NCBI GenBank assembly: GCA_002005505.1
Contig: KV908612.1
Location: 62,001-126,000 of the forward strand
DNA length: 64,000 bases
Direction of reading: 5' to 3'
DNA from: Botryococcus braunii
Lineage: Eukaryota > Chlorophyta > Trebouxiophyceae
The position numbers were made by a program, and so were the translations under genes. The stretch's first letter is position 1. Every line of letters begins with the position of its first letter. The notes beneath the pieces were generated by a model. That model worked only from the letters and a program-made list of their open reading frames with translations, had not been told where the DNA came from and made no database searches. Below are positions 22,705 through 62,001 of the stretch, one piece after another.

Positions 22705-22915
22705 AATTCCTATTCCTATAGATATTTCTCCCCCTGATATCCTATTCCTATAGATTTTAGTGACCCTGATATCCCACTGCTATAGATTTTACTGACCCTG
22801 ATATCCCACTGCTATAGATTTTACTGACCCTGATATCCCACTGCTATAGATTTTACTGACCCTGATATCCCACTGCTATAGATTTTACTGACCCTGATAT
22901 CCCACTGCTATGACA
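22705..22915. repeat. 32-bp tandem repeat in G
   Basis: About six head-to-tail copies of a 32-bp unit containing CCTGATATCCCACTGC followed by TATAGATTTTACTGAC. The first copy is diverged (CCTATTCC), the middle ones are nearly identical and the last is cut short. There are no unique spacers, so it is a minisatellite. Confidence 0.88.
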
Positions 22916-24245: not shown

Positions 24246-24389
24246 CTGCAGCAAATTGTACCAGGCTGTCAAGGGTGAATATTTTTCAAATAAAAAAACT
24301 ATACGAAAAAAAGAAAGACATACATTGTCCCTGCTCATTTAAATTACATCTGTTTGACTGTGACAATCAAGGCAAACATTTGAAGTTTA

Positions 24390-28099: not shown

Positions 28100-28119
28100 C
28101 TTCCCCTTGCCTGCATGCT

Positions 28120-31100: not shown

Positions 31101-33333
31101 CCGCCACCCCATTCTGCTGAGGCGTGTAGGGCGCTGAGGACTCCATCTTAGTGCCCTGCTGAGCACAAAACTCTTTGAATTGCTGGTTCAGGAACTCTGA
31201 ACCCCTGTCAGTCCTCACACACTTCACAACCGTGCCTCGTTGGGTCTGCCAAAAACGGAGCAGGTCTATCACAGCCTTTGGGATGCCATCCTTTGACTTC
31301 ACAGGCAGGGAGGCAACTTGGTGTGAACTTTCATCCACTACAGTGACCCAATATCGTTCACCTGTGATGGCAGGAGGTGATATGGGACCCACAGTATCCA
31401 CATGGACTCTATCGAGTGGGTGATGTGCAGGCCTGGAAGATACAGGGAAAGGAGGTCTGGAGTGTTTCCCTTGTATACACGATTCACAGTGCTTGGGGCA
31501 CTCAGAGCAGGGAGCAAGGGAGATATTGATTCCTGTAACCAGATCTTCCTTGGAGAACCTCTGCATGCTGCTGGCACCAGGATGACCTAACCTAGCATGC
31601 CACAGAGATCTCTCGCTACACACGTGTCCTTTCCTAAGATGAGACGCCTCAGCCATGTGATCAATATGTCTGCAGCCAACTTGCTGCCCTCTGACAGGAC
31701 TAACAAACTCCAAAAAAAACAGACCTCGTGCGCGGGTGATATCTCCACACCACCCTTCAGGTCCCTTCATGGCTGTGTAACCACCTGCAGTGTCAGTCAG
31801 GAAAGATGCTCCATCCTGAATTGCACCAGTGACTGAAATGAGGTTGGTATGCGCAGAAGGAACACACTGCACATTGTGCAGCCAGAATACTTCGTGCCTT
31901 GCATTCACAAGGCATACAGACCCAGATGCAATGATTCCTCCCTTGGCGTCTGAGGTTGCCAAGTGCAGAGGAAGAGGCTGTCTATGCATAACTGGATTAT
32001 GGAGCAATGAGAGATCATTGACTATATGCACAGAGGCACCACTATCTATTAACCAAGATGTGCTGCTAGCTCCATGCGAAGTTGGGGCAAGCACATTGAG
32101 AGAGATAAACATCGCCTCACCAGAAGGAGGGGGTGGAGGTGGTAAATGCCACCCCGGAAACGTGTGTTGACTTGTTGGATAGTTATATGCTGAAGGAGGT
32201 CCAGGGCTGGAAGCGGATGAAGGCGGGCCACCCCGGCCAGATCCATGGTCCCACCAGGCTTGAGGAGACGACTGTGGGCCTCCCTGGCCCCAGTAAGCTG
32301 CAGGCCCAACGCTTGCCGCTTGCATGTTTTGATGCAGAGCCTGCAGCTGCCTGAGCGGTCCGCAGTCAGTCATGAAGTGGCCCTTTGCCTTGCAGAAGTG
32401 GCATGTAAGCTCCTCTCTGGGCCTTCTTGCCCTGCCAGGTCCACGCCCCCTGCCACCAAAAGTAGTTGCAGAGGGGCCAGCGGGAGGCTGTTCGTTTGCT
32501 GGTAGTGCTGCTCCAACTCCCGGTACTGCTCCCACTCCTGGTGCAGCTCCAGCGCTTGATGACGCTCCAGCTACCCCCCCAGAGGGACCAGCCACTGCTG
32601 CAGCTGCCATGGCCTGAGGTGTTCCCTCTGCAGGTGGGTCCTTGTACCCACGGCTGGCTGCGGCGCGCAGGATTCTTTGAATCAGCTCCAATGGCGGCTT
32701 GTCGGTTGCCATAACCTCCAGGGACTCGAGCCTCAGCACAGGAGGGAGGCCCTTCACCATCAGCTCCCCAACATTGTGGTCCAAGAGGATGAACGCGTTC
32801 TTTCTGAGACTTGTAGCCAGATCCATCATTCTGTAGAGGTAGACCTTGAGTGTCTCCCCTGTCTTGATGCCCTGCTCCATTTCCTTGTACCACTCAAGGT
32901 TGATGTCTTGGTTGCTCCCTCCAGTGTGACTGTTCTTCACCCACGCGATGAAGTCGAACGCTGCTTTGTGGCATGAGATCTGAGAATGCCAGATGACTGG
33001 AACTGACTGGATCAGCCACTGCTTGATGGCTGAGTTCTCCACCGACCCTGGCATTGGCCTCTCCAAAGCCGCTCTGACCCCCTTGGTGTTTGCGCACGCC
33101 TCCAAATTTTCATACCAAAATTCAAAATTGCGCCCTCCATCATCAAGCATGACAGTCATCTTTGGATTAGAGGTATTGGGGATGTAGGCTGCCTTGTCAA
33201 TCTCCACCTTTGGTTCTGCAGTGGCTGATTGTGTCCCGGTCATAGACTGCCCTGGAGTGGCCCCACTGACTTCTCCAGGTTGAGACATTGCTGTTTCACT
33301 GCTACTTTCCTTTTCTTTGCCCCTTTTTGTCAT
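28120..33333 (-). CDS. Intact Copia Gag-Pol polyprotein of B1
   Basis: 1737 codons without a stop, in the Ty1/Copia order Gag-PR-IN-RT-RH. The Gag zinc knuckle CHFCKAKGHFMTDC lies near residue 311 after a GRGRGPGRARRPR basic tract. The protease SWLIDSGASVHIV is near 428 and the pre-integrase HARLGHPGASSM near 580. The integrase core has HVDTVGPISPPAI (near 645), RTDRGSEFLNQQ and NGVAERMNRTLKER. A long acidic/RE-rich linker follows. RT starts near 1260 with the YVDD box near 1410 ([11 protein letters not shown]), and RNase H near 1590 (GYVDADYAGD, STVQAEFMAAG, CDNQGCISNLRN). The ATG follows a 390-bp leader. It is the reference for judging damage in B2 and B3. Confidence 0.96.
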   Translation of the reverse strand: MTKRGKEKESSSETAMSQPGEVSGATPGQSMTGTQSATAEPKVEIDKAAYIPNTSNPKMTVMLDDGGRNFEFWYENLEACANTKGVRAALERPMPGSVENSAIKQWLIQSVPVIWHSQISCHKAAFDFIAWVKNSHTGGSNQDINLEWYKEMEQGIKTGETLKVYLYRMMDLATSLRKNAFILLDHNVGELMVKGLPPVLRLESLEVMATDKPPLELIQRILRAAASRGYKDPPAEGTPQAMAAAAVAGPSGGVAGASSSAGAAPGVGAVPGVGAALPANEQPPAGPSATTFGGRGRGPGRARRPREELTCHFCKAKGHFMTDCGPLRQLQALHQNMQAASVGPAAYWGQGGPQSSPQAWWDHGSGRGGPPSSASSPGPPSAYNYPTSQHTFPGWHLPPPPPPSGEAMFISLNVLAPTSHGASSTSWLIDSGASVHIVNDLSLLHNPVMHRQPLPLHLATSDAKGGIIASGSVCLVNARHEVFWLHNVQCVPSAHTNLISVTGAIQDGASFLTDTAGGYTAMKGPEGWCGDITRARGLFFLEFVSPVRGQQVGCRHIDHMAEASHLRKGHVCSERSLWHARLGHPGASSMQRFSKEDLVTGINISLAPCSECPKHCESCIQGKHSRPPFPVSSRPAHHPLDRVHVDTVGPISPPAITGERYWVTVVDESSHQVASLPVKSKDGIPKAVIDLLRFWQTQRGTVVKCVRTDRGSEFLNQQFKEFCAQQGTKMESSAPYTPQQNGVAERMNRTLKERTRTLLVHAAADPSLWKESLETATLLYNVGPTSDRSLTPMELFFGVKPDVSVLRTFGCVAHVHIPSGQRSVFGPKTIPGMFTGYCPQSKAYRVYVGNGVWKESRDVSFIEHLRGAERVGLSKVQPGSVYDSRISPPLGSENLATPQAIPSAAPPTFWDEEDDHGVETLSTEAPGTSGLCAGDQSGDGTTAAHDQGNPTSLDSTVGTPEPSQHSWSVLEHMQNLARGGVETQSQVEKMQKVQEGLRMQGKSQIPLPPGTTLTREQRYVQRVARREHSDIPLHAPDPGQAIVSEPNMVGLPDMQGQVETVEAMFGADVRDESSGLDMPAVGEAGAQSQSLASHAYGVQADIVGAAQASLGSVPKCESRRERELLLPSALRKVRECKGAAHESSSQGERERLEKESDNPGSTAQSQHKVHNVPYSGNQGEREREGNSISKADSPAAPQHKVQSVPSVTLGKVHVPSNLREAQRSPQWEFWQQAMQEEMESLDTHEVMQYVERPHGQKVIPVHWIFSTKNDAHGNVTRFKARLVAQGCRQIPGIDVGEVFAPTSSYGARRAVLAVAATQNLEIHQVDIKTAFLNGELEEEVYVTQPPGFENGNTRVVCKLRKALYGLKQAPRAWHKTLSDKLSVMGYSVCKSDAGVYIRRAPDGNLSFILVYVDDLLIVARVVAEIEWGKELLKKDFTIHDLGEVNDFLGCQVLRNRVQGTISMSCTPKIDALVEKFGVADDGRGVDTPMSKDFVASSRPESSDGMSHGAGTPLPPGHRYCELIGSLLYIANTTRPDISQAVGVLSRYRMTPTTSHWNEAIRVLKYLRDTRELALTLGGKGPELEGYVDADYAGDLDHRYSTTGYVLSVYGSAVVWGSKKQSSVATSTVQAEFMAAGHIVKEANWLRGFLEEIGAAPWRVKIFCDNQGCISNLRNPLYSKFTKHVAVSFHYAREAMALGQVDILYVESARNVADIMTKPLAKPVFVGHRDSLGLRRYT

Positions 33334-33705
33334 ACTATTGTCACTTCACCAGCCAAACTTACTCATAAACTTCTGGAATGCAGCAATACCCTACAATTCC
33401 CTCCATGTCATGGAAATTTACCAGCCAGTCTTGCACAGTAGTAGCAGATATGTTCCCCTCAGAAGTTTGCGCCGGAGTCCGGCCCGACTCACTCAGTGCT
33501 TCTAGACAACGTCTATGAATGATAAAGCACAGCTAAAACTTCAATTATGAATTTCCCAGAAAGGTAAACTGTGAGTAAGATAATGGTCCTGGTACACTCG
33601 AGTTCCCTTGCGCCGCTGCGCCATGCTCGAGCTCCTTTGTTGACGCTTACGTCTGACCCATCCGTAGACGACCTTCACTCCTGCTTTTACTTGGCTCAGC
33701 TGGAA
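33334..33705 (-). other. Leader of B1
   Basis: About 370 bp between primer site and gag ATG. No conserved upstream ORF is seen. It is presumably the packaging/dimerisation region by analogy with other LTR elements. Confidence 0.55.
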
Positions 33706-33709
33706 GGGC

Positions 33710-33723
33710 GTGGGCCCATAACC
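33710..33723 (-). promoter_or_regulatory. Primer-binding site of B1 (half-tRNA-iMet) and mimic hairpin
   Basis: Minus-strand GGTTATGGGCCCAC directly after the LTR, complementary to the initiator-tRNA anticodon arm. GCCCATAACCT at 33714-33724 and AGGTTATGGGC at 33730-33740 are an 11-bp perfect inverted repeat around 5 bases, joining the LTR end to the primer site. Confidence 0.87.
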
Positions 33724-34417
33724 TGTGAAAGGTTATGGGCAATCGGCTTTCCCTGTACAAAGCAGACAGGTCGTCAATAGACGAAGTTACTCCAGCTACA
33801 GTCCGTACGACTGTCTGCTGAGTGCCACACACAACTGTCGGACAAGACTAGCATCTGGTGATGCCCAGCATCTTTCACAACCAGTTCCGTTACATCATTA
33901 TCTTGTACACAAGCACCGATCAAGCAATCACTAGATAAGGCTCTAGACGGCTACGTTCAAGTACATGCCTATACTCCCTGAAGTCACTGTCCCTTATCTG
34001 TTTGAGTGACTACAGGGTACACTAAGCTTGTTCACTCTCACAATAGCAACAATGATACAACACACACTGCCGCACCGTACCTGTACAAAGCAGACAGGTC
34101 GTCAATAGACGAAGTTACTCCAGCTACAGTCCGTACGACTGTCTGCTGAGTGCCACACACAACTGTCGGACAAGACTAGCATCTGGTGATGCCCAGCATC
34201 TTTCACAACCAGTTGGTATTCACTCCGGTGGGGCAGCCTTAAGAGTTCATCCGACAAACGTGTGATCTAGATAGGATTGTACCTTATGTTCGAAAACGTC
34301 CAGAATCTGCCGTGTCTCAAGGTACCTTATGTTCTCAATGGACCCATATCCTAATAGTGCACACATGAAGATCACTTAAAGCACAAGGCATTCAATAATA
34401 ATGTTCAGAACTCAACA
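33724..34417 (-). repeat. 5' LTR of B1 with duplicated module
   Basis: 694 bp, same as 27406-28099 by eye. Modules at 34214-34081 and 33886-33753 in transcription order. The expected transcription start is near the first base of the first module, about 30 bases after a degenerate TATA (TCTTAAGG). Confidence 0.95.
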
Positions 34418-34537: not shown

Positions 34538-35870
34538 ATGGCTAGACGACAAGTCGAAGAGCTGCAGGCTGCTTTGGCCGAGGCCGAGGGGCGTGAAGCG
34601 GCAATGGCTGCCGAACTGGCTGAGTTACGACAACAGGCAGAAAACGCTGAAGTTGCGGCTCAAAACCCCGCGAACCCACAGGCAAGAATCCCGACCGTTC
34701 GAACCCACTTACCGGAAAAATTCGAGGGACGCAGGGACGATCTCCAACAATTCCTAGACGATGTGAGGTCATATTGTGAACTCACCGGTGTGCCCGCGAA
34801 CCTCAGGGTTGACTACGCAGTGCGCTGCTTAGGAAAGAGCGTGAAAAAGGTGTGGTTAACAAAAAAAAGCAGCTTACGTGAGGCAAAATCCAGGTGCTGT
34901 CGTAGATTTAGCTCTCTTTGGGGATCTGTTGTCTTCTGTCTATGATAACACTGATAAGGTTGCAAAGGCAAGGGATAAACTTGATTCCGTAGATCAGGGC
35001 AACGAATCAGTTGAGAAGTATGTTGAGCGCTTTACAACCTTGCTAGCAGAGGTAGAAGTCAGTGGGGACCTATCCATGGGGGAGAAAATCCATAGGTTTC
35101 GTAAAGGCCTACGTGAGGATTTAAAGAAGAATTCAGCAATTAACCCTACAACAGGCAAAGGTTTTGATGATTTGGATGCCTTGATAAGTTTACTCACACG
35201 GTACGATGCCGCGGTGGGCGGGCCCTTACAGGCAAAGAGACTGAGAACCGGCCCCGGGGGCCCTAACTCAAGCATTGCAACCGCCACCGTTGGCCCAGCA
35301 CCGCACGTTGCTGGCGTCGGACAGGACTGGACAATCCCCTACTACAGTCATGAATTTGGGATGATGGCAGCTGCACCGATGGTGGCAGCGCCAATCCAGA
35401 TGGCCCATGGTTACCCTGCGCCGCTCGCCACGGTCGCCGCGATCCAAGGCGCGACTCCTTATCCCCGCAGGGATGGTTTACCTCCCGAGTATCGGAGGGA
35501 CACTAGAGTTGCCTTTCCCCTCAACAGAAGCTGTTACGCGTGCAATACCCCTGGCCATGAATCTTGGTTTTGCCCACTCAAAAAACTTAGAGAGGACCCT
35601 AACGCCTATCTTAGTCAACAACAGTGGGACATCTTGCAACACATTGTGAAGGCCAGACAGGAGGTAAACCAGCCTGCTCCACCAATTCCAGGTCTGGCTG
35701 GTGATTTGCTGCGGCGACGGGTAGGAGGGGGCCACAACAACTTTAGGTCCCTCGGTGTGGGAGCAGCCCCTATGCAAGGGTGGACTGCACAGGGTGGGGC
35801 CGGACGGGGAAGGAGAATCAGAGGACGGGGCCGTGGGCGAAGCCGGGCAAGGGGACGCGGTAGGCCATGA
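34538..35870 (+). pseudogene. Gypsy Gag of H, one frameshift
   Basis: Starts MARRQVEELQAALAEAEGRE with a predicted coiled coil. The frame shifts in the A-run at about 34859-34867 and continues NPGAVVDLALFGDLL to the end. The capsid motif VEKYVERFTTLLAEVEVSGD parallels D. The zinc knuckle is CYACNTPGHESWFC and the tail is arginine/glycine-rich (GRGRRIRGRGRGRSRARGRG). The single frameshift would truncate Gag after about 110 residues. Confidence 0.87.
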
Positions 35871-36111
35871 GTGGAGTTTGAGAAGGAAACCTCCACACTT
35901 TTGTTCCTTGGGAATCTTTTCATTCTTCTATCGAGCAACGTTGTTCTGAGTTTTTGCATTGTTCTTTTTCTAGAGGCCCTTTGACAATACCCTACCCGAT
36001 GGAACGTCTAAACCGAAATTTGTTGCAGTACCTATAGGTAAAGCTGAGGACACCTTATCCACTTTCGCTCGTGAGCAACAAGCAAATAAACATTTAAGTG
36101 CTTGTTTTCTA

Positions 36112-38532
36112 ATGGGTAGTAAAGTGGCGAAATCCAAGGCAGTGTACCCATGGCTAAAAGGCATGAGAGTTATCCTGCAAGGTACCAAGGGACCTGATGT
36201 CCCCTACTCCTATGTAGTTTACCATGCCGGACCCAAATTTAGCGTATCTTTTGCTCAAGCTTTTTCAAATAGGCATTTAGCAATGCTTTTTCATGTTAAC
36301 TGTACTGGTGTGAAGGGCGTCGCTTTAGTCGATACCGGGGCGACGCACTCGTTCGTTAGACATGACTTCCTAGCTACTCTCGGAGTGAGGCTGTCAAAGA
36401 AGTGTGTGGATGTCCAGCTTGCAGATGGGCAGACCATGCGCTCGGCGGGGACAGCTAAGCTCAGGGTGCACTTATCTCAAACATATGTGGAACAGAGGGA
36501 TTTCATTGTCTGCGAAACTCTGTTGGATGGGGTGGACTTAATCCTTGGTGAGGATTTTCTGAAAGAAAGAAAAGCGTTAATTGACTACAATCATGGCGCA
36601 GTTCATCTTAAACCGCCTCATTCCTCACACTACATTACACTCCTCAACCCGCTGCCCCCTAGTGAAAGAGGTACCTTACCGGCGCAAAAAGTGAATGTTA
36701 TAAGTGAGGGTCAAGCTAGGCGGGCTATGCGAAAGGGTTGTCCAGGGTTTTGGGGGGTTGTGCGAGAGGCAAGGAGTGGACAGGACTCAGTTTGTGCAAC
36801 ACACTATCTCCATAGGGTTGCAGTGGCAACTACAGAGGGGGATAATCCTTGGGACGAAGACAGCGGAGCCACCGGCCTAAATTTAAACGAAAACTCCCGG
36901 CGTGTTATTGAGGGCATGAAAGACAAGCCACAGGACTTGAAGCAATTGTTGTTAGAGTTTTTGGATGTTTTTCCAGAGAAATTGCCAGATTTACCTCCAG
37001 ACAGGGGCATCGTGCACACTATACCTATGACACCCGGCCATACGCCGCCCTGTCGCCCCACTTATAGGTTGGCTGAACCAGAAGTGGCGGAGTGTCGGAG
37101 GCAGGTTGAGGAATTACTGGCACAGGGTTTCATCAGGCCGAGTGCATCACCGTATGGTAGCCCCATATTGTTTGTGAGAAAGAAAGACGGAACATTCCGA
37201 ATGGTTATAGATTACAGGGCAGTTAATAACTTAACAAGGAAGGACAAATATCCGTTGCCACGGATAGACGATCTTCTGGACAAGCTGCAGGGTTCAAAGT
37301 TCTTTACCTCTTTTGATCTCTTGTCAGGTTACCATCAAGTGCGATTACATGAATCTGATGTTCCCAAAACCGCTTTTAGAACACCCTTAGGTTCATTTAA
37401 ATTTTTGGTGCTTCCTTTTGGTCTCACGAATGCTCCCTCCACGTTTCAGAGACTGATGAACAGTGTGTTTCATGATTTTATTCGAGAGGGTTTTGTTGTG
37501 GTTTACCTAGATGATTTGTTGGTATACAGCAAGTCCAGGGAACAGCACTTAGAGCACTTAACTTGCATCCTTACTCGGCTGAGAGAGGAAAAACTTTATG
37601 CAAAATTATCCAAGTGTGAGTTTTTTGCTGACGAGTTGCGGTATTTGGGACATGTCGTGGGGCGCGACGGCATCAAAGTTGACCCTGCCAAAGTTCGGAC
37701 TATTGTGGACTGGCCAACACCCACGGGGAGCACGCACGTACGACAATTCTTGGGACTAGCCAACTACTTCCGCAAGTTCGTCCCGGGTTACAGTACGCTT
37801 GCGGCCCCCTTAACCCGGCTCACTGGCAAAGTTCCTTGGACGTGGGGAGAAGCTGAAGAGCACGCGTTTCAAAGTTTAAAAGAAACTTTGTCCAATGCTC
37901 CTGTACTAGCACCCCCAGACAGTAGCAAGCCTTTCAAAGTGATCTCAGATGCCAGTGACTATGGGGTGGGTGCAGTACTATTGCAAGAAGGTAGACCTGT
38001 AGCATACTTCAGTAAAAAGCTTAGTAATGCCGAACGCAATTATTCCACAACTGAGAAAGAGCTTGCAGGTGTGTTGTATGCCCTCAAGGAGTGGAGGTGT
38101 TACTTATTAGGGCAAACTTTCACAGTTGTTACGGACCATCGCGCGAATAGTTTTTTGCAAACCCAAACCCTACTCTCACCCAGACGGGCGCGCTGGGCGG
38201 AGTTTCTACAGTTATTCGACATCCAATGGGAATATGCACCGGGATCCACTAACCCTGCTGACCCATTGTCTAGGAGTCCTCACTTAGCCGGGGCCCACGT
38301 CCGAGCCCTAGCTCGGGCCCAGGCTGGGGTTCAGGCGTCGGTTCAGGCTAGGGCAGGGCCCCTGGGGGAGCACTCTCCCCCTGTCGGAGTAGGAGCGATG
38401 GGGGTTGGGGAGGCTGCAGACTCCACCACCCTACCCACGCCGATGGACGGGTTGAGGGGATGGGGAAGGGTTTTAAGTGAGGCATATGAGATAGATGATT
38501 GGCTCCATCGTAAACAAAATCGCCGCAAGTAA
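36112..38532 (+). CDS. Gypsy protease, RT and RNase H of H
   Basis: 806 codons. The protease active site is ALVDTGATHSFV. RT motifs are RMVIDYRAVNNLT, FTSFDLLSGYHQVRL, LPFGLTNAPSTFQRLMN and the catalytic YLDDLL in VVYLDDLLVYS. RNase H motifs are YGVGAVLLQEGRPVAYFSKK and TDHRANSFLQ. The frame may begin upstream of the ATG, since SACFL just before it matches the corresponding position in D. It ends prematurely at TAA 38530-38532 before integrase. Confidence 0.87.
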   Translation: MGSKVAKSKAVYPWLKGMRVILQGTKGPDVPYSYVVYHAGPKFSVSFAQAFSNRHLAMLFHVNCTGVKGVALVDTGATHSFVRHDFLATLGVRLSKKCVDVQLADGQTMRSAGTAKLRVHLSQTYVEQRDFIVCETLLDGVDLILGEDFLKERKALIDYNHGAVHLKPPHSSHYITLLNPLPPSERGTLPAQKVNVISEGQARRAMRKGCPGFWGVVREARSGQDSVCATHYLHRVAVATTEGDNPWDEDSGATGLNLNENSRRVIEGMKDKPQDLKQLLLEFLDVFPEKLPDLPPDRGIVHTIPMTPGHTPPCRPTYRLAEPEVAECRRQVEELLAQGFIRPSASPYGSPILFVRKKDGTFRMVIDYRAVNNLTRKDKYPLPRIDDLLDKLQGSKFFTSFDLLSGYHQVRLHESDVPKTAFRTPLGSFKFLVLPFGLTNAPSTFQRLMNSVFHDFIREGFVVVYLDDLLVYSKSREQHLEHLTCILTRLREEKLYAKLSKCEFFADELRYLGHVVGRDGIKVDPAKVRTIVDWPTPTGSTHVRQFLGLANYFRKFVPGYSTLAAPLTRLTGKVPWTWGEAEEHAFQSLKETLSNAPVLAPPDSSKPFKVISDASDYGVGAVLLQEGRPVAYFSKKLSNAERNYSTTEKELAGVLYALKEWRCYLLGQTFTVVTDHRANSFLQTQTLLSPRRARWAEFLQLFDIQWEYAPGSTNPADPLSRSPHLAGAHVRALARAQAGVQASVQARAGPLGEHSPPVGVGAMGVGEAADSTTLPTPMDGLRGWGRVLSEAYEIDDWLHRKQNRRK

Positions 38533-45442: not shown

Positions 45443-46172
45443 TGTTATAATAGTGAAAGAACATTTTGGTGCCTTTCCCTCAGAAGAGTAATTGTGGCCA
45501 GATCAGCTCCAATTACCAGTGGGAACATTCATTAGAATGAGTAATAGGTGGCAGAACCTAGGAGTTCTGCCAGAACCAATCTAGACCAATTTTACGGTGA
45601 TGAGGGAGGATGAGGTAATCAGACACGGTTTGCTCGAAAAGCTATATGCTCCTGGCTCGAAGAAATGAGGCACTTGATTGGGACATCAAAAGCACTTCGG
45701 GTGTTTGTTGTTTAACTGTTGCCAGTCAAGTCACCTCATTCACAGTCGCCACTGCTTGTTAACCGACGTACAACAAGAGTGTCGCCGGGCTAAACACCCT
45801 CGTGCCGGGTCATACAGGTAAACTGTTGTCAGGGCATTACGTGCACAAGAACAATGGATTAGGAAAGGGTCTAGATAATGTGTATTAGAAATGTGCTAAT
45901 GTTTTAGCTCATCGGACATCGGTAATGCAGACTATCAGTAACTTCGTAAATAGAGTAGTTTGAATTGCTGAGTGATGAGAGAGAGCAATAAGCATTGTAA
46001 GACTTGATTGGGACATCAAAAGCACTTCGGGTGTTTGTTGTTTAACTGTTGCCAGTCAAGTCACCTCATTCACAGTCGCCACTGCTTGTTAACTGACGTA
46101 CAACAAGAGTGTCGCCGGGCTAAACACCCTCGTGCCGGGTCATACAGGGAACGCCGAACTCAGAAGTTTACA
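45443..46172 (+). repeat. 5' LTR of I with duplicated module
   Basis: 730 bp, TGTTATAATAG...GTTTACA. The 146-bp module occurs at 45672-45817 (followed by GTAAAC) and 46002-46147 (followed by GGAACG), 330 bp apart, with one difference seen (ACCGACG against ACTGACG). Each carries the AAAGCACTTCGGGTGTTT hairpin. Confidence 0.94.
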
Positions 46173-46187
46173 GGTTATGGGCCCACC
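46173..46187 (+). promoter_or_regulatory. Primer-binding site of I (half-tRNA-iMet)
   Basis: GGTTATGGGCCCACC abuts the LTR and is the exact reverse complement of GGTGGGCCCATAACC, the anticodon arm of plant-type initiator methionine tRNA. The A-family LTR end lacks the GCCCATAACC mimic seen in B, C and E. Confidence 0.87.
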
Positions 46188-46238: not shown

Positions 46239-46763
46239 ATGGCGCGAAAGAGACCAACCGGACGCATGAGCACGGGCGGACGTAGACCTCCTCCACCTCC
46301 ACCTCCTCCTCCGACATATAACGAGCGAAGAAAGGCAGGAGGAGAGAAAGGACCACGAACGATAGAAGAACGAGCATTCCTGGTAAAGGACTTTGTAAAC
46401 GAAGCTCACGGACGGGGAGCACTCACGCCTCCTCGGTGGTTCCGAGAACGCTTTCCGATATATCCAGCTTATAAATTCACTGTGTGGGAAATCTCATTCA
46501 TCAACGGAGAGCCTGGATATCTAACACGAGCAATTTTTGAGAGGTGCCTACAGCAAACGGGAGGACCGTCACACGAAACTTATTGGACAGAGAAGGCAGC
46601 CTACGCAGCCATTGAGCTAGCTTTGAGCAGCCTGGGAGACGACTTCATTGATGGTCTAATTCTCTGCGGCGAGGGCGAATTCCACGTGGACGAGTGGGTC
46701 ACAGAGGACGACAGTGAGGACGAGGACGGAGACTCCAGACTGTCAGAAAGGAGCGACGACTGA
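46239..46763 (+). CDS. Extra upstream ORF (174 aa) of A-family Copia, unknown function
   Basis: Lies between primer site and gag, a place normally without a gene in Copia elements. The N-terminus is basic (MARKRPTGRM) followed by a run of nine prolines. A conserved middle (RTIEERAFLVKDFV, RFPIYPAYKFTVWEISFING, LTRAIFERCLQQTGG) leads to a very acidic tail (WVTEDDSEDEDGD). There is no signal peptide, membrane segment or motif I know. Comparison with the L copy (62797-63321) gives about 24 synonymous and 9 amino-acid changes, so it is a selected protein. Its TGA (followed by C) is in frame with the gag ATG 15 bases later. It could be an accessory or anti-silencing factor, or an alternative Gag N-terminus; both are speculation. 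Confidence 0.85.
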   Translation: MARKRPTGRMSTGGRRPPPPPPPPPTYNERRKAGGEKGPRTIEERAFLVKDFVNEAHGRGALTPPRWFRERFPIYPAYKFTVWEISFINGEPGYLTRAIFERCLQQTGGPSHETYWTEKAAYAAIELALSSLGDDFIDGLILCGEGEFHVDEWVTEDDSEDEDGDSRLSERSDD

Positions 46764-46778: not shown

Positions 46779-47589
46779 ATGAAGAAGAAGGGTACCAGCA
46801 CCAGCTCTGAATCCAAGTCAGCAGGAGAGGAGTCCACATCAACTCCTACCAGGGAACCTTGCACTCCCAGTACCTCAAGGGGGGAAGGAGACACCCTTCC
46901 CAAGGTCATTGCCACACAGGTCAAGGTCCATATAAAACTGCAACGTAAAGGCCAGAACTTTGTGGTGTGGGACAATGCTTTCACTGCAGCAAATGATGCA
47001 AAGGGTTCTTTGCCCGCCATCCAACAAGCTATGCCTGGGACTACCCATAATGCTGCAGCATTGTTGTTACTGTATGAATCAGTTCCTGAAGACTGGTTGG
47101 GGGAGCTGTCAAGTAAACCATCGGCATATGATGCATATGTGCATATTTGTAGGAAAATTGTGGGAGGCTACAATCCTCAGGCCAATGCTGACTGGCTAAA
47201 GGAGATGTCCCGTGGCATGAAACAAGGTGAAACAATTTCCCAGTACGTCAATAGGATGATCAATCTGAAAGGTTGCTTGAAGAGAAATGGTCATGATCTC
47301 CTGGATGGGCACGTGGCCACACAGATTGTGCAGGGCTTGCCTGCAGCTGCCAACTCCCCTGGACTACTGCCTACAGCCGTGGCTTATCCCCTGAACCAGC
47401 TGGCAGACCTCATCTCCACCACAGCAGAAGCAACGGGCTATAATGATGACCCAGATCTGCCTGCAGCGGTCATGACAGCACAGCCAATGCTGACTGCAGC
47501 AGTCCCTGCCCCTACTGCATGTGCTGTGACTCAGACAAGACAGCCTGCATACACAGAGGCCCAGGTGGAGGTACGTGGTACGTGCAACT
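46779..47589 (+). pseudogene. Gag of I, N-terminal part, split by B3
   Basis: MKKKGTSTSSES start, then a Copia-type Gag (LLLLYESVPEDWLGELSS, WLKEMSRGMKQGETISQYVN). The frame runs to the first half of the zinc knuckle (GTCN), where B3 inserted with TSD CAACT. The second half is at 54279 onwards. The start codon lies in the same frame as the preceding extra ORF. Confidence 0.88.
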
Positions 47590-47955
47590 TGTAAAAGGTT
47601 ATGGGCAATCGGCTTTCCCTGTACAAAGCAGACAGGTCGTCAATAGACGAAGTTACTCCAGCTACAGTCCGTACGACTGTCTGCTGAGTGTCACACACAA
47701 CTGTTGGACAAGACTAGCATCTGGTAATGCCCAGCATCTTTCACAACCAGTTGGTATTCACTCCGGTGGGGCAGCCTTAAGAGTTCATCCGACAAACGTG
47801 TGATCTAGATAGGATTGTACCTTATGTTTGAAAACGTCCAGAATCTGCCGTGTCTCAAGGTACCTTATGTTCTCAATGGACCCATATCCTAATAGTGCAC
47901 ACATGAAGATCACTTAAAGCACAAGGCATTCAATAATAATGTTCAGAACTCAACA
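47590..47955 (-). repeat. 3' LTR of B3, single-module form
   Basis: 366 bp with only one module (47619-47752) joined directly to U3 on one side and to the GGAAAGCC tail on the other. This is exactly what removing the GT...CAG segment would give, and equally what recombination between the two modules would give. Polypurine tract at 47956-47967 (minus strand). Confidence 0.93.
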
Positions 47956-47975
47956 CTTCCCCTTGCCTGCATGCT

Positions 47976-50900
47976 TTATGTGTATCTTCCCAAACCTAGT
48001 GAATCACGATGACCAACAAACACGGGCTTGGCAAGTGGCTTGGTCATAATGTTAGCCACATTGCGAGCAGATTCCACATAGAGGATATCTACCTGCCCAA
48101 GTGCCATAGCTTCCCTAGCGTAGTGGAAGCTTACTGCAACGTGCTTTGTGAATTTGGAATACAGGGGGTTCCGTAAATTAGAAATGCATCCTTGGTTGTC
48201 ACAGAAAATTTTGACCCTCCAAGGTGCAGCCCCTATCTCTTCCAAGAAGCCCCTTAGCCAGTTGGCTTCCTTCACAATGTGGCCAGCTGCCATAAAATCA
48301 GCTTGCACAGTTGAGGTAGCAACTGAGCTCTGCTTCTTGCTTCCCCAAACCACGGCACTACCATAGACTGATAGAACATAGCCAGTGGTGGAATACCTGT
48401 GGTCCAGGTCCCCAGCATAGTCGGCATCAACATAGCCTTCTAGCTCAGGGCCCTTTCCACCCAGAGTAAGAGCTAACTCTCTGGTATCTCTCAAGTACTT
48501 CAGCACTCGAATGGCCTCATTCCAGTGTGAGGTAGTGGGTGTCATTCTATACCTTGACAACACTCCAACAGCCTGAGAAATGTCAGGCCGGGTCGTATTG
48601 GCTATGTACAGCAACGATCCAATTAACTCGCAGTATCGATGACCAGGTGGCAGAGGGGTACCAGCCCCATGTGACATACCATCTGAGGGATTCGGGTCTG
48701 CTGCTAGCCACGAAGTCCTTGGACATGGGGGTATCAACCACACGCCCATCATCAGCAACGCCAAACTTCTCCACAAGAGCATCAATCTTGGGAGTGCAAC
48801 TCATGGAAATAGTGCCCTGCACTCTATTGCATAGGACCTGACACCCCAGGAAATCATTCACCTCTCCCAAATCATGGATGGTGAAGTCCTTCTTCAATAA
48901 CTCTTTCCCCCACTCAATCTCTGCAACCACTCTGGCAACTATGAGAAGATCATCGACATAAACAAGAATAAACGACAGATTACCATCAGGGGCCCTCCTG
49001 ATGTATACCCCAGCGTCGCTCTTGCACACACTATACCCCACCACGCTCAACTTGTCGCTCAAGGTCTTGTGCCAAGCCCGTGGGGCTTGTTTAAGACCGT
49101 AGAGTGCCTTCCTGAGCTTGCACACAACTCTCGTGTTGCCATTCTCAAATCCTGGTGGTTGGGTCACATAGACCTCTTCCTCCAACTCCCCATTGAGAAA
49201 AGGTGTCTTGATATCCACTTGGTGGATCTCAAGATTTTGTGTGGCAGCCACTGCCAGCACAGCTCTCCTAGCACCATAGCTGCTGGTAGGTGCAAAAACC
49301 TCACCAACATCTATACCAGGAATCTGTCTGCAACCCTGGGCAACCAATCTTGCTTTAAACCGAGTGACATTCCCATGTGCATCGTTTTTTGTAGAAAAAA
49401 TCCAATGAACAGGGATAACTTTCTGCCCATGGGGTCTTTCCACATACTGCATAACCTCATGGGTGTCTAAAGACTCCATCTCCTCTTGCATTGCCTGCTG
49501 CCAAAACTCCCACTGAGGTGAGCGTTGGGCTTCCCTCAAGTTTAAGGGCACGTGAACTTTTCCCAACCTGACAGAAGGTACACTCTGTACCTTATGCTGT
49601 GGTGCAGCAGGGCTGTCAGCCTTACTGGTGATGTTCCCTTCTCTCTCTCTCTCTCCCTGGTTGCCAGAATAAGGTACATTATGTACCTTATGCTGGGACT
49701 GGGCAGTACTTCCGGGATTATCTGATTCCTTCTCAAGTCTCTCTCTCTCTCCTTGACTACTGGACTCATGTGCAGCACCCTTACATTCTCGCACCTTCCG
49801 CAATGCAGAGGGGAGCAGCAGCTCTCTCTCTCTCCTGGACTCACACTTGGGCACACTACCCAGACTTGCCTGAGCTGCGCCTACAATGTCAGCCTGCACA
49901 CCATAAGCATGACTAGCCAGTGACTGGGATTGGGCACCAGCTTCCCCTACTGCTGGCATGTCTAACCCACTACTCTCATCTCTTACATCTGCACCGAACA
50001 TAGCCTCGACTGTCTCAACCTGCCCTTGCATATCAGGGAGACCAACCATGTTTGGCTCACTCACAATTGCCTGACCTAGGTCAGGGGCATGCAATGGGAT
50101 GTCAGAATGCTCTCTCTCAGCCACGCGCTGTACATAACGCTGCTCCCTTGTAAGGGTGGTCCCTGGAGGAAGGGGAATTTGTGACTTCCCCTGCATTCGC
50201 AACCCCTCTTGTACCTTCTGCATTTTTTCTACCTGGGATTGAGTTTCTACACCCCCCCTGGCCAGATTCTGCATATGCTCAAGCACCGACCACGAGTGCT
50301 GAGATGGTTCTGGGGTCCCAACAGTAGAATTCAGGCTGGTGGGGGTTCCTTGGTCATGTGCTGCTATGGTCCCGTCTCCAGACTGATCCCCAGCACAAAG
50401 TCCAGAGGTCCCAGGAGCCCCAGTGGAAAGCGTCTCCACTCCATGGTCATCCTCCTCATCCCAGAACGTGGGTGGAGCAGCAGAGGGAATTGCTTGAGGC
50501 GTTGCCAGATTCTCACTGCCAAGGGGGGGTGATATCCTAGAATCATAGACAGACCCAGGCTGGACCTTTGATAGACCCACTCGCTCAGCCCCCCTCAAGT
50601 GCTCGATAAAGCTGACGTCCCTACTCTCCTTCCACACTCCATTCCCCACGTACACACGATACGCTTTAGACTGGGGACAATAACCAGTAAACATCCCAGG
50701 GATGGTCTTGGGCCCAAAAACAGACCTTTGGCCACTCGGAATGTGCACATGGGCTACACAGCCAAACGTGCGCAGCACAGACACATCAGGTTTGACACCA
50801 AAGAATAATTCCATGGGGGTCAGGGACCTGCCTGAAGTAGGACCCACATTGTAGAGGAGGGTAGCTGTCTCAAGCGCCTCCTTCCAAAGGGAAGGGTCTG

Positions 50901-53189
50901 CTGCAGCATGGACCAACAGAGTCCTTGTTCGCTCCTTCAGGGTCCTATTCATCCTCTCCGCCACCCCATTCTGCTGAGGCGTGTAGGGCGCTGAGGACTC
51001 CATCTTAGTGCCCTGCTGAGCACAAAACTCTTTGAATTGCTGGTTCAGGAACTCTGAACCCCTGTCAGTCCTCACACACTTCACAACCGTGCCTCGTTGG
51101 GTCTGCCAAAAACGGAGCAGGTCTATCACAGCCTTTGGGATGCAATCCTTTGACTTCACAGGCAGGGAGGCAACTTGGTGTGAACTTTCATCCACTACAG
51201 TGACCCAATATCGTTCACCTGTGATGGCAGGAGGTGATATGGGACCCACAGTATCCACATGGACTCTATTGAGTGGGTTATGTGCAGGCCTGGAAGATAC
51301 AGGGAAAGGAGGTCTTGAGTGTTTCCCTTGTATACACGATTCACAGTGCTTGGGGCATTCAGAGCAGGGAGCAAGGGAGATATTGATTCCTGTAACCAGA
51401 TCTTCCTTGGAGAACCTCTGCATGCTGCTGGCACCAGGATGACCTAACCTAGCATGCCACAGAGATCTCTCGCTACACACGTGTCCTTTCCTAAGATGAG
51501 ACGCCTCAGCCATGTGATCAATATGTCTGAAGCCAACTTGCTGCCCTCTGACAGGACTAATAACTCCAAAAAAAACAGACCTCGTGCGCGGGTGATATCT
51601 CCACACCACCCTTCAGGTCCCTTCATGGCTGTGTAACCACCCGCAGTGTCAGTCATGAAAGATGCTCCATCCTGAATTGCACCAGTGACTGAAATGAGGT
51701 TGGTATGCGCAGAAGGAACACACTGCACATTGTGCAGCCTGAATACTTCGTGCCTTGCATTCACAAGGCATACAGACCCAGATGCAATGATTCCTCCCTT
51801 GGCGTCTGAGGTTGCCAAGTGCAGACGAAGAGGCTGTCCATGCATAACTGGATTATGGAGCAATAAGAGATCATTGACTATATGCACAGAGGCACCACTA
51901 TCTATTAACCAAGATGTGCTGCTAGCTCCATGCGAAGTTGGGGCAAGCACATTGAGAGAGATAAACATCGCCTCACCAGAAGGAGGGGGTGGAGGTGGTA
52001 AATGCCCCCCGGAAACGTGTGTTGACTTGTTGGATAGTTATATGCTGAAGGTGGTCCAGGGCTGGAAGCAGATGAAGGCGGGCCACCCCGGCCAGATCCA
52101 TGGTCCCACCAGGCTTGAGGAGACGACTGTGGGCCTCCCTGGCCCCAGTAAGCTGCATGCCCAACGCTTGCCGCTTGCATGTTTTGATGCAGAGCCTGCA
52201 GCTGCCTGAGCGGTCCGCAGTCAGTCATGAAGTGGCCCTTTGCCTTGCAGAAGTGGCATGTAAGCTCCTCTCTAGGCCTTCTTGCCCTGCCAGGTCCACG
52301 CCCCCTGCCACCAAAAGTAGTTGCAGAGGGGCCAGGTGGGAGGCTGTTCGTTTGCTGGTAGTGCTGCTCCAACTCCCGGTACTGCTCCCAGTCCTGGTGC
52401 AGCTCCAGCGCTTGATGACGCTCTAGCTACCCCCCCAGAGGGACCAGCCACTGCTGCAGCTGCCATGGCTTGAGGTGTTCCCTCTGCAGGTGGGTCCTTG
52501 TACCCACGGCTGGCTGCGGCGCGCAGGATTCTTTGAATCAGCTCCAATGGCGGCTTGTCGGTTGCCATAACCTCCAGGGACTCGAGCCTCAGCACAGGAG
52601 GGAGGCCCTTCACCATCAGCTCCCCAACATTGTGGTCCAAGAGGATGAACGCGTTGTTTCTGAGACTTGTAGCCAGGTCCATCATTCTGTAGAGGTAGAC
52701 CTTGAGTGTCTCCCCTGTCTTAATGCCCTGCTCCATTTCCTTGTACCACTCAAGGTTGATGTCTTGGTTGCTCCCTCCAGTGTGACTGTTCTTCACCCAC
52801 GTGATGAAGTCGAACGCTGCTTTGTGGCATGAGATCTGAGAATGCCAGATGACTGGAACTGACTGGATCAGCCACTGCTTGATGGCTGAGTTCTCCACCG
52901 ACCCTGGCATTGGCCTCTCCAAAGCTGCTCTGACCCCCTTGGTGTTTGCGCACGCCTCCAAAGCTTCATACCAAAATTCAAAATTGCGCCCTCCATCATC
53001 AAGCATGACGGTCATCTTTGGATTAGAGGTATTGGGGATGTAGGCTGCCTTGTCAATCTCCACCTTTGGTTCTGCAGTGGCTGATTGTGTCCCGGTCATA
53101 GACTGCCCTGGAGTGGCCCCACTGACTTCTCCAGGTTGAGACATTGCTGTTTCACTGCTACTTTCCTTTTCTTTGCCCCTTTTTGTCAT
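47976..53189 (-). pseudogene. Copia Gag-Pol of B3 with several frameshifts
   Basis: Collinear with the B1 polyprotein. Frame changes relative to B1 lie near 52337 (one base more), 52008 (one base fewer in a C-run), 51559 (one base fewer) and 48688 (one base more). The longest open part (48583-51609) covers integrase and most of RT, with RTDRGSEFLNQQ, NGVAERMNRTLKER and [11 protein letters not shown] preserved. RNase H follows in another frame to GLGRYT. Confidence 0.93.
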
Positions 53190-53565
53190 ACTATTGTCAC
53201 TTCACCAGCCAAACTTACTCATAAACTTCTGGAATGCAGCAAGACCCTACAATTCCCTCCATGTCATGGAAATTTACCAGCCAGTCTTGCACAGTAGTAG
53301 CAGATATGTTCCCCTCAGAAGTTTGCGCAGGAGTCCGGCCCGACTCACTCAGTGCTTCTAGACAACGTCGATGAATGATAAAGCACAGCTAAAACTTCAA
53401 TTATGAATTTCCCAGAAAGGTAAACTGTGAGTAAGATAATGGTCCTGGTACACTCGAGTTCCCTTGCGCCGCTGCGCCATGCTCGAGCTCCTTTGTTGAC
53501 GCTTACGTCTGACCCATCCGTAGACGACCTTCACTCCTGCTTTTACTTGGCTCAGCTGGAAGGGC

Positions 53566-53579
53566 GTGGGCCCATAACC
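53566..53579 (-). promoter_or_regulatory. Primer-binding site of B3 with mimic hairpin
   Basis: Minus-strand GGTTATGGGCCCAC next to the 5' LTR. With the LTR end it forms GCCCATAACCT-GTAAA-AGGTTATGGGC, as in C and B1. Confidence 0.85.
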
Positions 53580-54273
53580 TGTAAAAGGTTATGGGCAATC
53601 GGCTTTCCCTGTACAAAGCAGACAGGTCGTCAATAGACGAAGTTACTCCAGCTACAGTCCGTACGACTGTCTGCTGAGTGTCACACACAACTGTTGGACA
53701 AGACTAGCATCTGGTAATGCCCAGCATCTTTCACAACCAGTTACGTTACATCATTATCTTGTACACAAGCACCGATCAAGCAATCACTAGATAAGGCTCT
53801 AGACGGCTACGTTCAAGTACATGCCTATACTCCCTGAAGTCACTGTCCCTTGTCTGTTTGAGTGACTACAGGGTACACTAAGCTTGTTCACTCTCACAAT
53901 AGCAACAATGATACAACACACACTGCCGCACCGTACCTGTACAAAGCAGACAGGTCGTCAATAGACGAAGTTACTCCAGCTACAGTCCGTACGACTGTCT
54001 GCTGAGTGTCACACACAACTGTTGGACAAGACTAGCATCTGGTAATGCCCAGCATCTTTCACAACCGGTTGGTATTCACTCCGGTGGGGCAGCCTTAAGA
54101 GTTCATCCGACAAACGTGTGATCTAGATAGGATTGTACCTTATGTTCGAAAATGTCCAGAATCTGCCGTGTCTCAAGGTACCTTATGTTCTCAATGGACC
54201 CATATCCTAATAGTGCACACATGAAGATCACTTAAAGCACAAGGCATTCAATCATAATGTTCAGAACTCAACA
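53580..54273 (-). repeat. 5' LTR of B3 with duplicated module
   Basis: 694 bp with modules at 54070-53937 (followed by GTACGG) and 53742-53609 (followed by GGAAAG). Both copies share the three diagnostic bases that separate B2/B3 from B1. Confidence 0.94.
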
Positions 54274-58716: not shown

Positions 58717-59446
58717 TGTTATAATAGTGAAAGAACATTTTGGTGCCTTTCTCTCAGAAGAGTAATAGTGGCCAGATCAGCTCCAATTACCAGTGGGAAC
58801 ATTCATTAGAATGAGTAATAGGTGGCAGAACCTAGGAGTTCTGTCAGAACCAATCTAGACCAATTTTACAGTGATGAGGGAGGATGAGGTAATCAGACAC
58901 GGTTTGCTCGAAAGGCTTTATGCTTCTGGCTCGAAGGAATGAGGCACTTGATTGGGACATCAAAAGCACTTCGGGTGTTTGTTGTTTAACTGTTGCCAGT
59001 CAAGTCACCTCATTCACAGTCGCCACTGCTTGTTAACCGACGTACAACAAGAGTGTCGCCGGGCTAAACACCCTCGTGCCGGGTCATACAGGTAAACTGT
59101 TGTCAGGGCATTACGTGCACAAGGACAATGGATTAGGAAAGGGTCTAGATAATGTGTATTAGAAATGTGCTAATGTTTTAGCTCATCGGACATCGGTAAT
59201 GCAGACTATCAGTAACTTCGTAGATAGAGTAGTTTGAATTGCTGAGTGATGAGAGAGAGCAATAAGCATTGTAAGACTTGATTGGGACATCAAAAGCACT
59301 TCGGGTGTTTGTTGTTTAACTGTTGCCAGTCAAGTCACCTCATTCACAGTCGCCACTGCTTGTTAACCGACGTACAACAAGAGTGTCGCCGGGCTAAACA
59401 CCCTCGAGCCGGGTCATACAGGGAACGCCGAACTCAGAAGTTTACA
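58717..59446 (+). repeat. 3' LTR of I with duplicated module
   Basis: 730 bp after polypurine tract GGCAAGGGGAAG (58705-58716). Modules at 58946-59091 (followed by GTAAAC) and 59276-59421 (followed by GGAACG). Confidence 0.94.
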
Positions 59447-59819: not shown

Positions 59820-60542
59820 TGTTATATTTTAGAAGAAAGACATGTGCCTTTCCCTCAGGAGAGTAATAGTGGCCAGACCAGCGCTGATCAGGTAGCGGGA
59901 ACAATCCTAGAATGAGTAATAGGTGGCAGAACCTAGAAGTTCTGCCGGGACCAATCTAGTCCAATTTCATTCGATTAGAGAGAATGAGGTAATCAGACGC
60001 GGTTTGCTAGGAAGGATATATGTCGCTGGCACGAAAGGGCGAGTCACTTGATTGGGACTATAAAAGCACTTCGGGTGTTTGTCTCTTAACTATTGCCAGT
60101 CAAGTCGTCTCACACAGTCGTCACTGCTTGTTTCTCGACACACAACAAGAGTGCCGCCGGACTAAACACCCTCGTGCCGGGTCATACAGGTATACTGATG
60201 TTGTAGCACTGAATCCACAAGGACAATGGATTAGGAAGAGGTCTAGCTAATGTGTTTTAAGCGAGTGCTAATGTTTTAGCTCATCGGACACTGGTAACAC
60301 AGACTATCGGTAGTTACGTAGGTGGAGTAGTTTGAATTACTGAGTGATGAGAGAGAACAATAAGCATTGTAAGACTTGATTGGGACTATAAAAGCACTTC
60401 GGGTGTTTGTCTCTTAACTGTTGCCAGTCAAGTCGTCTCACACAGTCGTCACTGCTTGTTTCTCGACACACAATAAGAGTGCCGCCGGACTAAACACCAT
60501 CGTGCCGGGTCATACAGGAAACGCCAAGCACAGAAGTTTTCA
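59820..60542 (+). repeat. 5' LTR of element J (diverged A family)
   Basis: 723 bp, TGTTATATTTTAG...GTTTTCA. The 144-bp modules at 60046-60189 (followed by GTATAC) and 60374-60517 (followed by GAAACG) differ at three positions. Both carry a clear TATAAAAG (60059-60066 and 60387-60394), so each copy could be a promoter. Confidence 0.9.
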
Positions 60543-60557
60543 GGTTATGGGCCCACC
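60543..60557 (+). promoter_or_regulatory. Primer-binding site of J
   Basis: GGTTATGGGCCCACC directly after the LTR, half-tRNA-iMet type. Confidence 0.85.
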
Positions 60558-60608
60558 AACTCTTATGCTGGGCATGTAAAATGTATGACTCGAGCAAAGT
60601 AATCTGTG

Positions 60609-60815
60609 ATGGCGCGAACGAGGCAAAGCGGACGTATGCACACGGGCACAGCTGGACCTGCTAGACGACCACCACCTCCTCCTCCAAAATATAACGAGCG
60701 TAGGAAGGCAGGAGGAGAGAGAGGACCACGAACGATCGAAGAAAGAGCATTCCTTGTAAAGGACTTCGTCAGTGAAGCTTACGGACAGGGAGCCCTCACG
60801 CCTCCTCAGTGGTTC
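60609..60815 (+). pseudogene. Extra upstream ORF of J, cut by K
   Basis: MARTRQSGRMHTGTAGPARR, a proline run, and the conserved RTIEERAFLVKDFVSEAYG as far as PPQWF, where the K LTR is inserted (expected TSD GGTTC, 60811-60815). It is the most diverged of the four copies, yet the framework is kept. Confidence 0.87.
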
Positions 60816-61548
60816 TGTTATAATAGTGATAGAACATTTTGGTGCCTTTCCCTCAGAAGAGTAATAGTGGCCAGATCAGCTCGGATTAACCAGCGGGAAC
60901 ACTCATTAGAATGAGTAATAGGTGGCAGAACCTAGGAGTTCTGCCAGAATCTATCTAGATCAATTTCACATAGATTAGGGAGAATGAGGTAATTGGACAC
61001 GGTTTGCTTGAAAGGATTTATGACGCCGGCGTGCAAGGGCGAGGCACTTGATTGGGACATTAAAGGCACTTCGGGTGCTTATCTCTTGACTGTTGCCTAT
61101 CAAGTCCTCATTCATATTCGGTCACTGCTTGTTCTCCTACACACAACAAGAGTGCCGACAAGCTAATCACCCTTCGTGCCCGGGTCATACAGGTAATCTG
61201 ACGTTGAGTGACAGAAGCCTCATTGACAATTGGTTAGGAAGAGGTCTAGGTAATGTTATTAAGTTGGTGCTAATGCTTTTGCTCATTGAACACTAGTAAT
61301 GCAGACTATCGGTAGTTGCGTAGATTAAGTAGTTTGGATTACGGAGTGATGAGAGAAAGCAAGTAGCATTGTAATGACTTGATTGGGACATTAAAGGCAC
61401 TTCGGGTGCTTATCTCTTGACTGTTGCCTATCAAGTCCTCATTCATATTCGGTCACTGCTTGTTCCCCTACACACAACAAGAGTGCCGACGAGCTAATCA
61501 CCCTTCGTGCCCGGGTCATACAGGAAACGCCAAGCTCAGAAGTTTTCA
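60816..61548 (+). repeat. 5' LTR of element K (A family)
   Basis: 733 bp, TGTTATAATAG...GTTTTCA. Modules at 61046-61192 (followed by GTAATC) and 61377-61523 (followed by GAAACG), two differences seen. The module sequence is of the A1 type and differs strongly from that of L. Confidence 0.92.
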
Positions 61549-61563
61549 GGTTATGGGCCCACC
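61549..61563 (+). promoter_or_regulatory. Primer-binding site of K
   Basis: GGTTATGGGCCCACC directly after the LTR. Confidence 0.85.
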
Positions 61564-61619
61564 AACTCTTATGCGGGGCATGTAAAAGAAAATGTATGAC
61601 TCGAGCAAAGTAATTTGCA

Positions 61620-62001
61620 ATGGCGCGAAAGAGGCAAAGCGGACGCATGAGCACGGGCGGAGGTAGACCTCCTCCTCCTCCACCTCCTCCTCCAACATAT
61701 AACGAGCGAAGAAAGGCAGGAGGAGAGAAAGGACCACGAACGATTGAAGAACGAGCATTTCTGGTAAAGGACTTCGTCAACGAAGCTCACGGACGGGGAG
61801 CACTCACGCCTCCTCAGTGGTTCCAAGATCGCTTTCCCATATATCCAGCCTATAAATTTACACTGTGGGAAGTGTCGTTCATCAACGGAGAGCCGGGATA
61901 TCTGACACGCGCAATCTTTGAAAGGTGCCTACAGCAAACGGGAGGACCATCACACGATGCATATTGGACAGAGAAGGCAGCCTACGCAGCCATTGAGTTA
62001 G
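61620..62001 (+). pseudogene. Extra upstream ORF of K, cut by L
   Basis: Starts MARKRQSGRMSTGGGRPPPP and is open through YWTEKAAYAAIEL, where the L LTR interrupts it (expected TSD GTTAG, 61997-62001). The acidic tail is beyond L, outside the window. Confidence 0.88.

Follow-up and report, generated by a model that had tools for sequence, protein, structure and literature searches.

A Ty1/copia long terminal repeat that probably carries a spliceosomal-type intron restored at each transposition

We analysed the long terminal repeat (LTR) at positions 45443-46172 of C312:62001-126000, a stretch of 64,000 nucleotides (hereafter the window) within a 176-Mb assembly of 989 contigs, to which all genome-wide counts below refer. 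The LTR contains one sequence module twice, and comparison with its relatives indicates that it is a Ty1/copia LTR that probably holds a spliceosomal-type intron restored at each jump. With slightly less confidence, we think it likely that this intron escapes loss during reverse transcription through splicing of the 5' leader, cutting of the 3' copy ahead of its acceptor and rebuilding by strand transfer, and that the base preceding the second module (copy 2) records either the RNA cap or an untemplated nucleotide added to the cDNA end.

Copia LTRs with a paired module

On sequence evidence, these LTRs are those of Ty1/copia elements, a big family in the host genome. One pol (28120-33330, minus strand) showed the copia domain order in a Pfam search, with rve (residues 636-737) followed by RVT_2 (residues 1244-1489). 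The LTRs run from TG to CA and are flanked in the window by 5-bp target duplications (AGAAT, CAACT and AGTTG). Drosophila copia and Volvox Osser have the same domain order; to our knowledge, neither has a double-module LTR. The top-ranked named relative of the pol is from Micractinium conductrix (41% over 53% of the length), one unnamed sequence matches at 91%, and a search of viral contigs for relatives gave none. The host is probably a green alga (chlorophyte). Its genome gave 35 matches to the light-harvesting family, which marks a photosynthetic eukaryote, and the chains closest to one light-harvesting exon were 9kqp_3 and 6zzx_3, the latter of which we take to be Chlorella photosystem I. 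A fungal host was rejected on the light-harvesting matches and on Micractinium as the nearest named pol relative; rbcL gave no match.

The features of the I-type element that carries the LTR, all on the plus strand, are as follows, with R, U3 and U5 denoting the repeat, unique 3' and unique 5' regions.

45443-46172: 5' LTR, Ty1/copia, called I in the original prediction; TG...CA ends, AGAAT duplication paired with that at 59446, copia gag/pol interior
45643-45648: TATA-like box, 29 bases upstream of copy 1
45672-45817: module copy 1, proposed R start and exon 1, from repeat comparison and junction bases
45818-46147: proposed intron, with GT donor (45818-45819), spacer, copy 2 and CAG acceptor (46145-46147)
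45996-46000: TGTAA, proposed polyadenylation (poly(A)) signal acting in the 3' LTR, from the position rule in an excerpt of PMC1868727
46001: joint base before copy 2, hypervariable genome-wide
46002-46147: module copy 2, proposed to be exon 1 copied anew, from repeat comparison
46148-46172: U5 tail, from sequence
46173-46184: putative primer-binding site GGTTATGGGCCC, adjoining the LTR end
58717-59446: 3' LTR of the I-type element; modules start at 58946 and 59276; AGAAT duplication

The standard order in these LTRs is U3, module (134-147 bp), spacer, module and a short tail. In the I-type 5' LTR, the modules at 45672-45817 and 46002-46147 are offset by 330 bases and 98.7% identical over 150 bases. 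Direct repeats of this kind (listed lengths 135-152 bp, spacing 324-332 bp) were found in 12 LTRs of the window, bearing out the paired module that had been described from the sequence; the matching target duplication AGAAT confirmed 45443-46172 and 58717-59446 as the real 5' and 3' LTRs of one element. All 12 window pairs show CAG/GT after copy 1, as had been claimed, and the predicted junction 45817/46148 proved exact in position, with GT (45818-45819) following copy 1 and GG following copy 2. The bases said always to follow copy 2 (GGAA, GAAA, GAAT or GATA) did so in 12/12 pairs of the window but not genome-wide, where L079 and L087 read CAG/GTGAT and L074 reads CAG/GCGT.

GT conservation, proposed as a check, also held in every family read. 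We compared 17 families or subfamilies, 8 from the window and 9 fetched from elsewhere; three of the 20 regions fetched (L069, L077 and L086) were without a module pair. Copy 1 was followed by GTA or GTG in 17/17 families, and copy 2 ended in CAG/G in all 16 that could be read (the copy-2 end of L075 is unreadable), the second base after this CAG being G in 6, A in 7, C in 1 and T in 2. A repeat scan of the window and the loci fetched beforehand (spacing 250-420 bp), weighted toward large families and favouring the GT strand where both strands offered a joint, gave 116 pairs. A CAGG joint was present in 109, one of which has identical bases after both copies and is possibly no module, and GT followed copy 1 in 109/109. 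The remaining seven had no readable joint, four being truncated by the locus start and three (window 1757, L048 and L075) failing the script rule. Read by eye, possible branch-like motifs (CTAAC, CTTAAC, CTAAT or similar) stand ~20-30 bases upstream of CAG in many families, weakly in A and E.

Module borders, TATA-like box and TGTAA

Over the first ten module bases, the two copies agree at every position in 16/16 families; at positions -3, -2 and -1, agreement is 0/16, 2/16 and 2/16. At the far end, agreement is 16/16 through CAG/G (15/16 at one position) and 2/16 at the next base; the second base past CAG/G, mostly A, agrees in 14/16, by chance or constraint. The border pattern TGTAA-N(1-5)-ACTKGWTKKGRA had 2357 matches genome-wide, versus 1 for the reversed control.

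Upstream of the two copies the sequences differ. In 14/16 families a TATA-like box begins 28-30 bases ahead of copy 1, and L070 alone has one near -30 of copy 2. The base preceding copy 1 is C or T in 17/17, and that preceding copy 2 is G in 15 and C in 2. TGTAA starts 6-8 bases upstream of copy 2 in 16/16 families, seven of which had been fetched by TGTAA, so that the independent ones are the eight window families and L085; additional TGTAA words occur elsewhere in 6/16. In an excerpt of PMC1868727, UGUAA peaks ~17 nucleotides (nt) upstream of the cleavage site in the chlorophytes tested, Pyramimonas excepted. This rule would set cleavage ~10 nt inside copy 2 and short of its CAG. Unlike in general chlorophyte use, UGUAA would here be placed inside an intron.

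These borders refine the original prediction that the module is R plus the first exon. Copy 1 may well be a first exon beginning at the RNA start, followed by a GT...CAG intron that ends with copy 2. The module as a whole need not be R, however, since TGTAA would put the RNA 3' end inside copy 2, and only the first module bases are then needed as R.

Equality of the two copies

Mean divergence is 1.2% between the two modules of one LTR and 40.5% between families (16 families, L075 omitted). In three many-copy families, insertions diverge by 1.0-3.7% in the LTR outside the modules, while the two copies within one LTR differ by only 0.34-0.56%. This sample comprises 73 rows and 69 distinct LTRs; the loci fetched were the top 8, 30 and 30 among 40 scored per query, out of 787, 1896 and 1071 candidates. 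Among the 51 variable module sites in the 69 LTRs, seven have a variant present on at least two contigs, and in 7/7 it stands in both copies. At 10 further sites the variant is in both copies and confined to one contig. The other 34 are changed in one copy only, none of them recurring on another contig, and one site has two different private changes.

We also compared 14 same-strand LTR pairs 4-16 kb apart, four of which overlap in one array and each of which need not be one insertion. They show 28 differences in 9832 bases, and the copies inside those LTRs show 9 in 3975. The resemblance of these rates suggests that an LTR is born with equal copies, which then diverge as two LTRs do. In old LTRs, drift between the modules has reached 5.9% (L074), 3.8% (L079) and 3.7% (L087); for these three, no partner LTRs were present at the usual spacing. 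As read from the sequences, equality of the two modules is re-established at, or close to, every transposition, between fixed and sharp borders. The earlier proposal of an intron generated by duplication of a CAG/G site thus keeps its duplicated module but not a one-time origin, as the variants shared by both copies point to remaking or re-equalisation at transposition.

Gene conversion, or recurrent gain and loss of whole units, could equalise repeats with no role for RNA, and the existence of three-module LTRs and of 89 one-module A-type LTRs (see below) is in its favour. We consider it very improbable. The drift of L074, L079 and L087 argues against ongoing conversion in place, which we rejected also because the copies diverge like LTR pairs. 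Nor would conversion be expected to leave borders uneroded in 16 families, or a birth-linked variable base at one of them.

Two side observations concern E-type LTRs. L018, L019 and L026 (contig C477), ~3.3 kb apart, have a common copy-1/copy-2 difference, which fits daughters of a parent with unequal LTRs, or a tandem duplication. L031 and L032 (contig C1), nearly back to back on opposite strands, have the same private copy-2 change.

The joint base before copy 2

In A- and E-type LTRs genome-wide, a base other than G stands right before copy 2 at 222 sites, versus 17 one base further out at equal stringency; these 17 all lack a partner on the same contig. Among the first 100 joint-base variants listed, the A-type ones are T (64), C (11) and A (10), and the E-type ones A (8), T (4) and C (3). 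These 100 include 29 same-strand pairs 5.8-6.6 kb apart, likened by strand and spacing to the two LTRs of one element, and the joint base is shared in 29/29, pairs with G in one LTR being invisible in such a listing. Individual copies were read at six places (L108-L113) and at L088. L108, L110, L111, L112 and L113 equal the commonest A copy over 313 bases except at the joint base (T, T, C, A and A), as does L088 (C); L109 has one change more.

A joint base that changes at birth is as expected where a complementary DNA (cDNA) end made from capped RNA meets the acceptor. We infer that the usual G before copy 2, where copy 1 has C, derives from the RNA cap. Untemplated addition has been reported for the Tf1 enzyme (excerpt of PMC3185545) and for Moloney murine leukaemia virus (PMC6885630). 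The joint base would thereby mark the first module base as an RNA end, but would not by itself tell the two copies apart.

An ordinary U3-R-U5 LTR would have its RNA start at copy 2, with copy 1 a duplicated part of U3 kept alike by gene conversion. An R beginning there agrees with the variable joint base and with TGTAA immediately upstream, and U3-located poly(A) signals are known in Rous sarcoma virus, mouse mammary tumour virus and human T-cell leukaemia virus type 1 (excerpt of PMC3694450). Such a start has hardly any likelihood in our view. Except in L070, no TATA-like box is found near -30 of copy 2, and separate inheritance of the copies predicts neither variants shared by both nor equality at birth. 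We rejected it on the shared variants, the positions of the TATA-like box and the bases preceding the copies.

A model for intron restoration

We infer the RNA start, splicing, cleavage site and direction of copying from the features above, and propose the following cycle. Transcription would begin with copy 1, at its first base. In the transcript of the 5' LTR, this copy would serve as exon 1, and GT...CAG splicing would excise the spacer, UGUAA and copy 2, joining exon 1 to the U5 tail. In the 3' LTR, UGUAA would direct cleavage ~10 nt inside copy 2, upstream of the acceptor, leaving this copy of the intron unspliceable and kept in the RNA. Minus-strand strong-stop DNA would copy the tail and exon 1 as far as the cap, pair through the first module bases with the RNA 3' end, and be elongated across the spacer, copy 1 and U3. 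The resulting LTR, U3 - copy 1 - spacer - (exon 1 - tail), would have regained the intron, its copy 2 being a new copy of the parent's copy 1. Exon 1 would in this way write its own 3' splice site in each generation.

Two links hold the model together. If RNA starts at copy 1, and if copy 2 is copy 1 rejoined to the U5 tail, the RNA that is copied must have exon 1 beside the tail, as GT...CAG splicing would yield; and the RNA would end short of the acceptor, so that the 3' LTR retains the spacer. One CAG/G would then do double duty, as the exonic part of the donor site and as the acceptor, and both the poly(A) signal inside the intron and the lack of drift between modules over generations would be explained.

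Single- and three-module LTRs

With a search pattern that required C before the module, we found 89 single-module A-type LTRs genome-wide. Among them are 18 pairs 5977-5994 bases apart, the usual 6318 minus one unit. In the six single-module elements that we read, both LTRs are single, the target duplications match in 6/6, and no TGTAA remains in the LTRs; five of the six are 0-1 base from the common double LTR minus one unit. Such elements arose before integration, as a by-product expected if exon-1 strong-stop DNA sometimes pairs with copy 1. Other unit losses are later than integration, because a nested element of the window has a double 5' LTR and a single 3' LTR. The A-type share of TGTAA borders is ~33-41% (first 100 of 2357, sorted by eye), which puts A-type doubles at roughly ten times the number of singles. 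Three-module LTRs occur at L084 and two other places. L084 lies ~6.6 kb from a closely similar two-module LTR, L107, on contig C10.

Template jumping would give single-module elements equally. In this alternative, RNA from copy 1 remains unspliced. During strong-stop synthesis the reverse transcriptase jumps from copy 2 to copy 1, which deletes the spacer, and its product would go on to pair with the copy 2 that lies in the 3' LTR. Direct repeats do favour jumps, and single-module elements exist. We nevertheless regard it as unlikely. A jump would be needed in almost every cycle and up to the last bases of the module: I is distinguished from L078 at 4 and 8 bases ahead of the joint, and each has its change in both copies. 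Jumping would also account for neither GT nor CAG, and the 5' leader would retain a poly(A) signal.

Restoration by splicing and strand transfer has several points to set against it. The donor context is weak, with G at +5 in only 4/17 families. The start of the spacer is homologous and conserved deeper too (+7 T in 16/17, +8 G in 15/17), which keeps GT conservation from being decisive by itself. Within three families, the six bases that follow CAGG are invariant (18 columns), yet only ~10-17% of neighbouring columns vary, and this invariance is therefore not significant. TATA-like patterns were picked after inspection of the sequences, and families C and L070 are without such a box upstream of copy 1; in C, the one that the original prediction placed 31 bases upstream was not found, though most other families have one. 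A search for poly(A)-tailed copies marking the RNA 3' end gave 0 matches, and 6 for the reversed control. The joint base by itself is compatible with an RNA start at copy 2, and the T variant (64 among the first 100 listed) may partly be one subfamily, by descent. The C before the module is kept in all 89 A-type singles, as the search pattern demanded, and end-on transfer is not thereby supported.

Other elements of the window

The I-type element is interrupted by a nested copia insertion at 47590-54273 (duplication CAACT), whose 3' LTR (47590-47955) is single-module, one 328-bp unit being missing. The other LTRs and elements are as follows.

1553-2258, plus strand: LTR, modules at 1757 and 2087
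13511-14211, minus strand: family E LTR, copy 1 at 13870 and copy 2 at 13538
15806-16500, plus strand: family C solo LTR, modules at 16009 and 16333, target duplication GTGCC
27406-34417, minus strand: full A-type copia element, target duplication AGTTG, both LTRs double-module, pol at 28120-33333 with pol domains matched
47590-54273, minus strand: nested A-type copia element, target duplication CAACT, 5' LTR double-module
59844-62730, plus strand: three more LTRs (59844-60542, 60816-61548 and 62002-62730) with module pairs

GGTTATGGGC directly adjoins the 5' LTR, at the place of a putative transfer RNA (tRNA) primer-binding site, and presumably resembles the complement of the initiator-tRNA anticodon arm. 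The A-type U5 tail (33724-33768; the LTR ends of A and E are similar) holds GCCCATAACC, the inverted complement of GGTTATGGGC, and the two could pair. In the I-type element, a 174-residue frame (46239-46763), for which Pfam gave no match, precedes a gag-like frame (46779-47594). A chromodomain-like frame just upstream of 45443, recognised by reading alone, was ruled out as part of the element, which is copia. Beside the copia elements, Ty3-type gag and protease-reverse transcriptase-RNaseH frames lie at 34878-38532. Tandem arrays occupy 24389-25766 (~six units of 235-240 bp) and 22676-22931 (32-bp units).

Relation to known systems and significance

In foamy viruses, the splice acceptor lies outside the LTR. 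One foamy-type feature is present here, namely the GT after copy 1 with TGTAA downstream. In the foamy LTR transcript a splice donor precedes the poly(A) signal, as the proposed one does here, and U1 bound at the foamy donor suppresses the 5' poly(A) site (excerpt of PMC3694450). Unlike them, with their retroviral pol, the present elements have an RVT_2 copia pol, which would make them partly similar in working but not members of that group. A duplicated exon and a restored intron would further set our elements apart. Plant Ogre, EVADE and BARE1 are likewise LTR retrotransposons with functional introns, from which a subgenomic mRNA (short GAG or similar) is obtained (excerpt of PMC12786077). 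Unlike in those elements, the intron proposed here lies inside the LTR, in the very RNA that is copied. Neither the foamy virus excerpt nor the plant one mentions a duplicated exon or a restored intron. Literature searches covering open-licence PubMed Central papers found no such layout of an LTR intron with a duplicated exon.

Passage through spliced RNA is the classic route of intron loss. If our model is true, a retroelement reverse-transcribes its own spliced RNA yet keeps the intron, stored in the 3' LTR behind the poly(A) site. This would be a simple answer to an old problem, namely how poly(A) can be disregarded in one of two identical LTRs and used in the other. The thousands of natural copies would, moreover, be a DNA record of the RNA start and of the end of first-strand transfer, opening the process to study from the genome alone.
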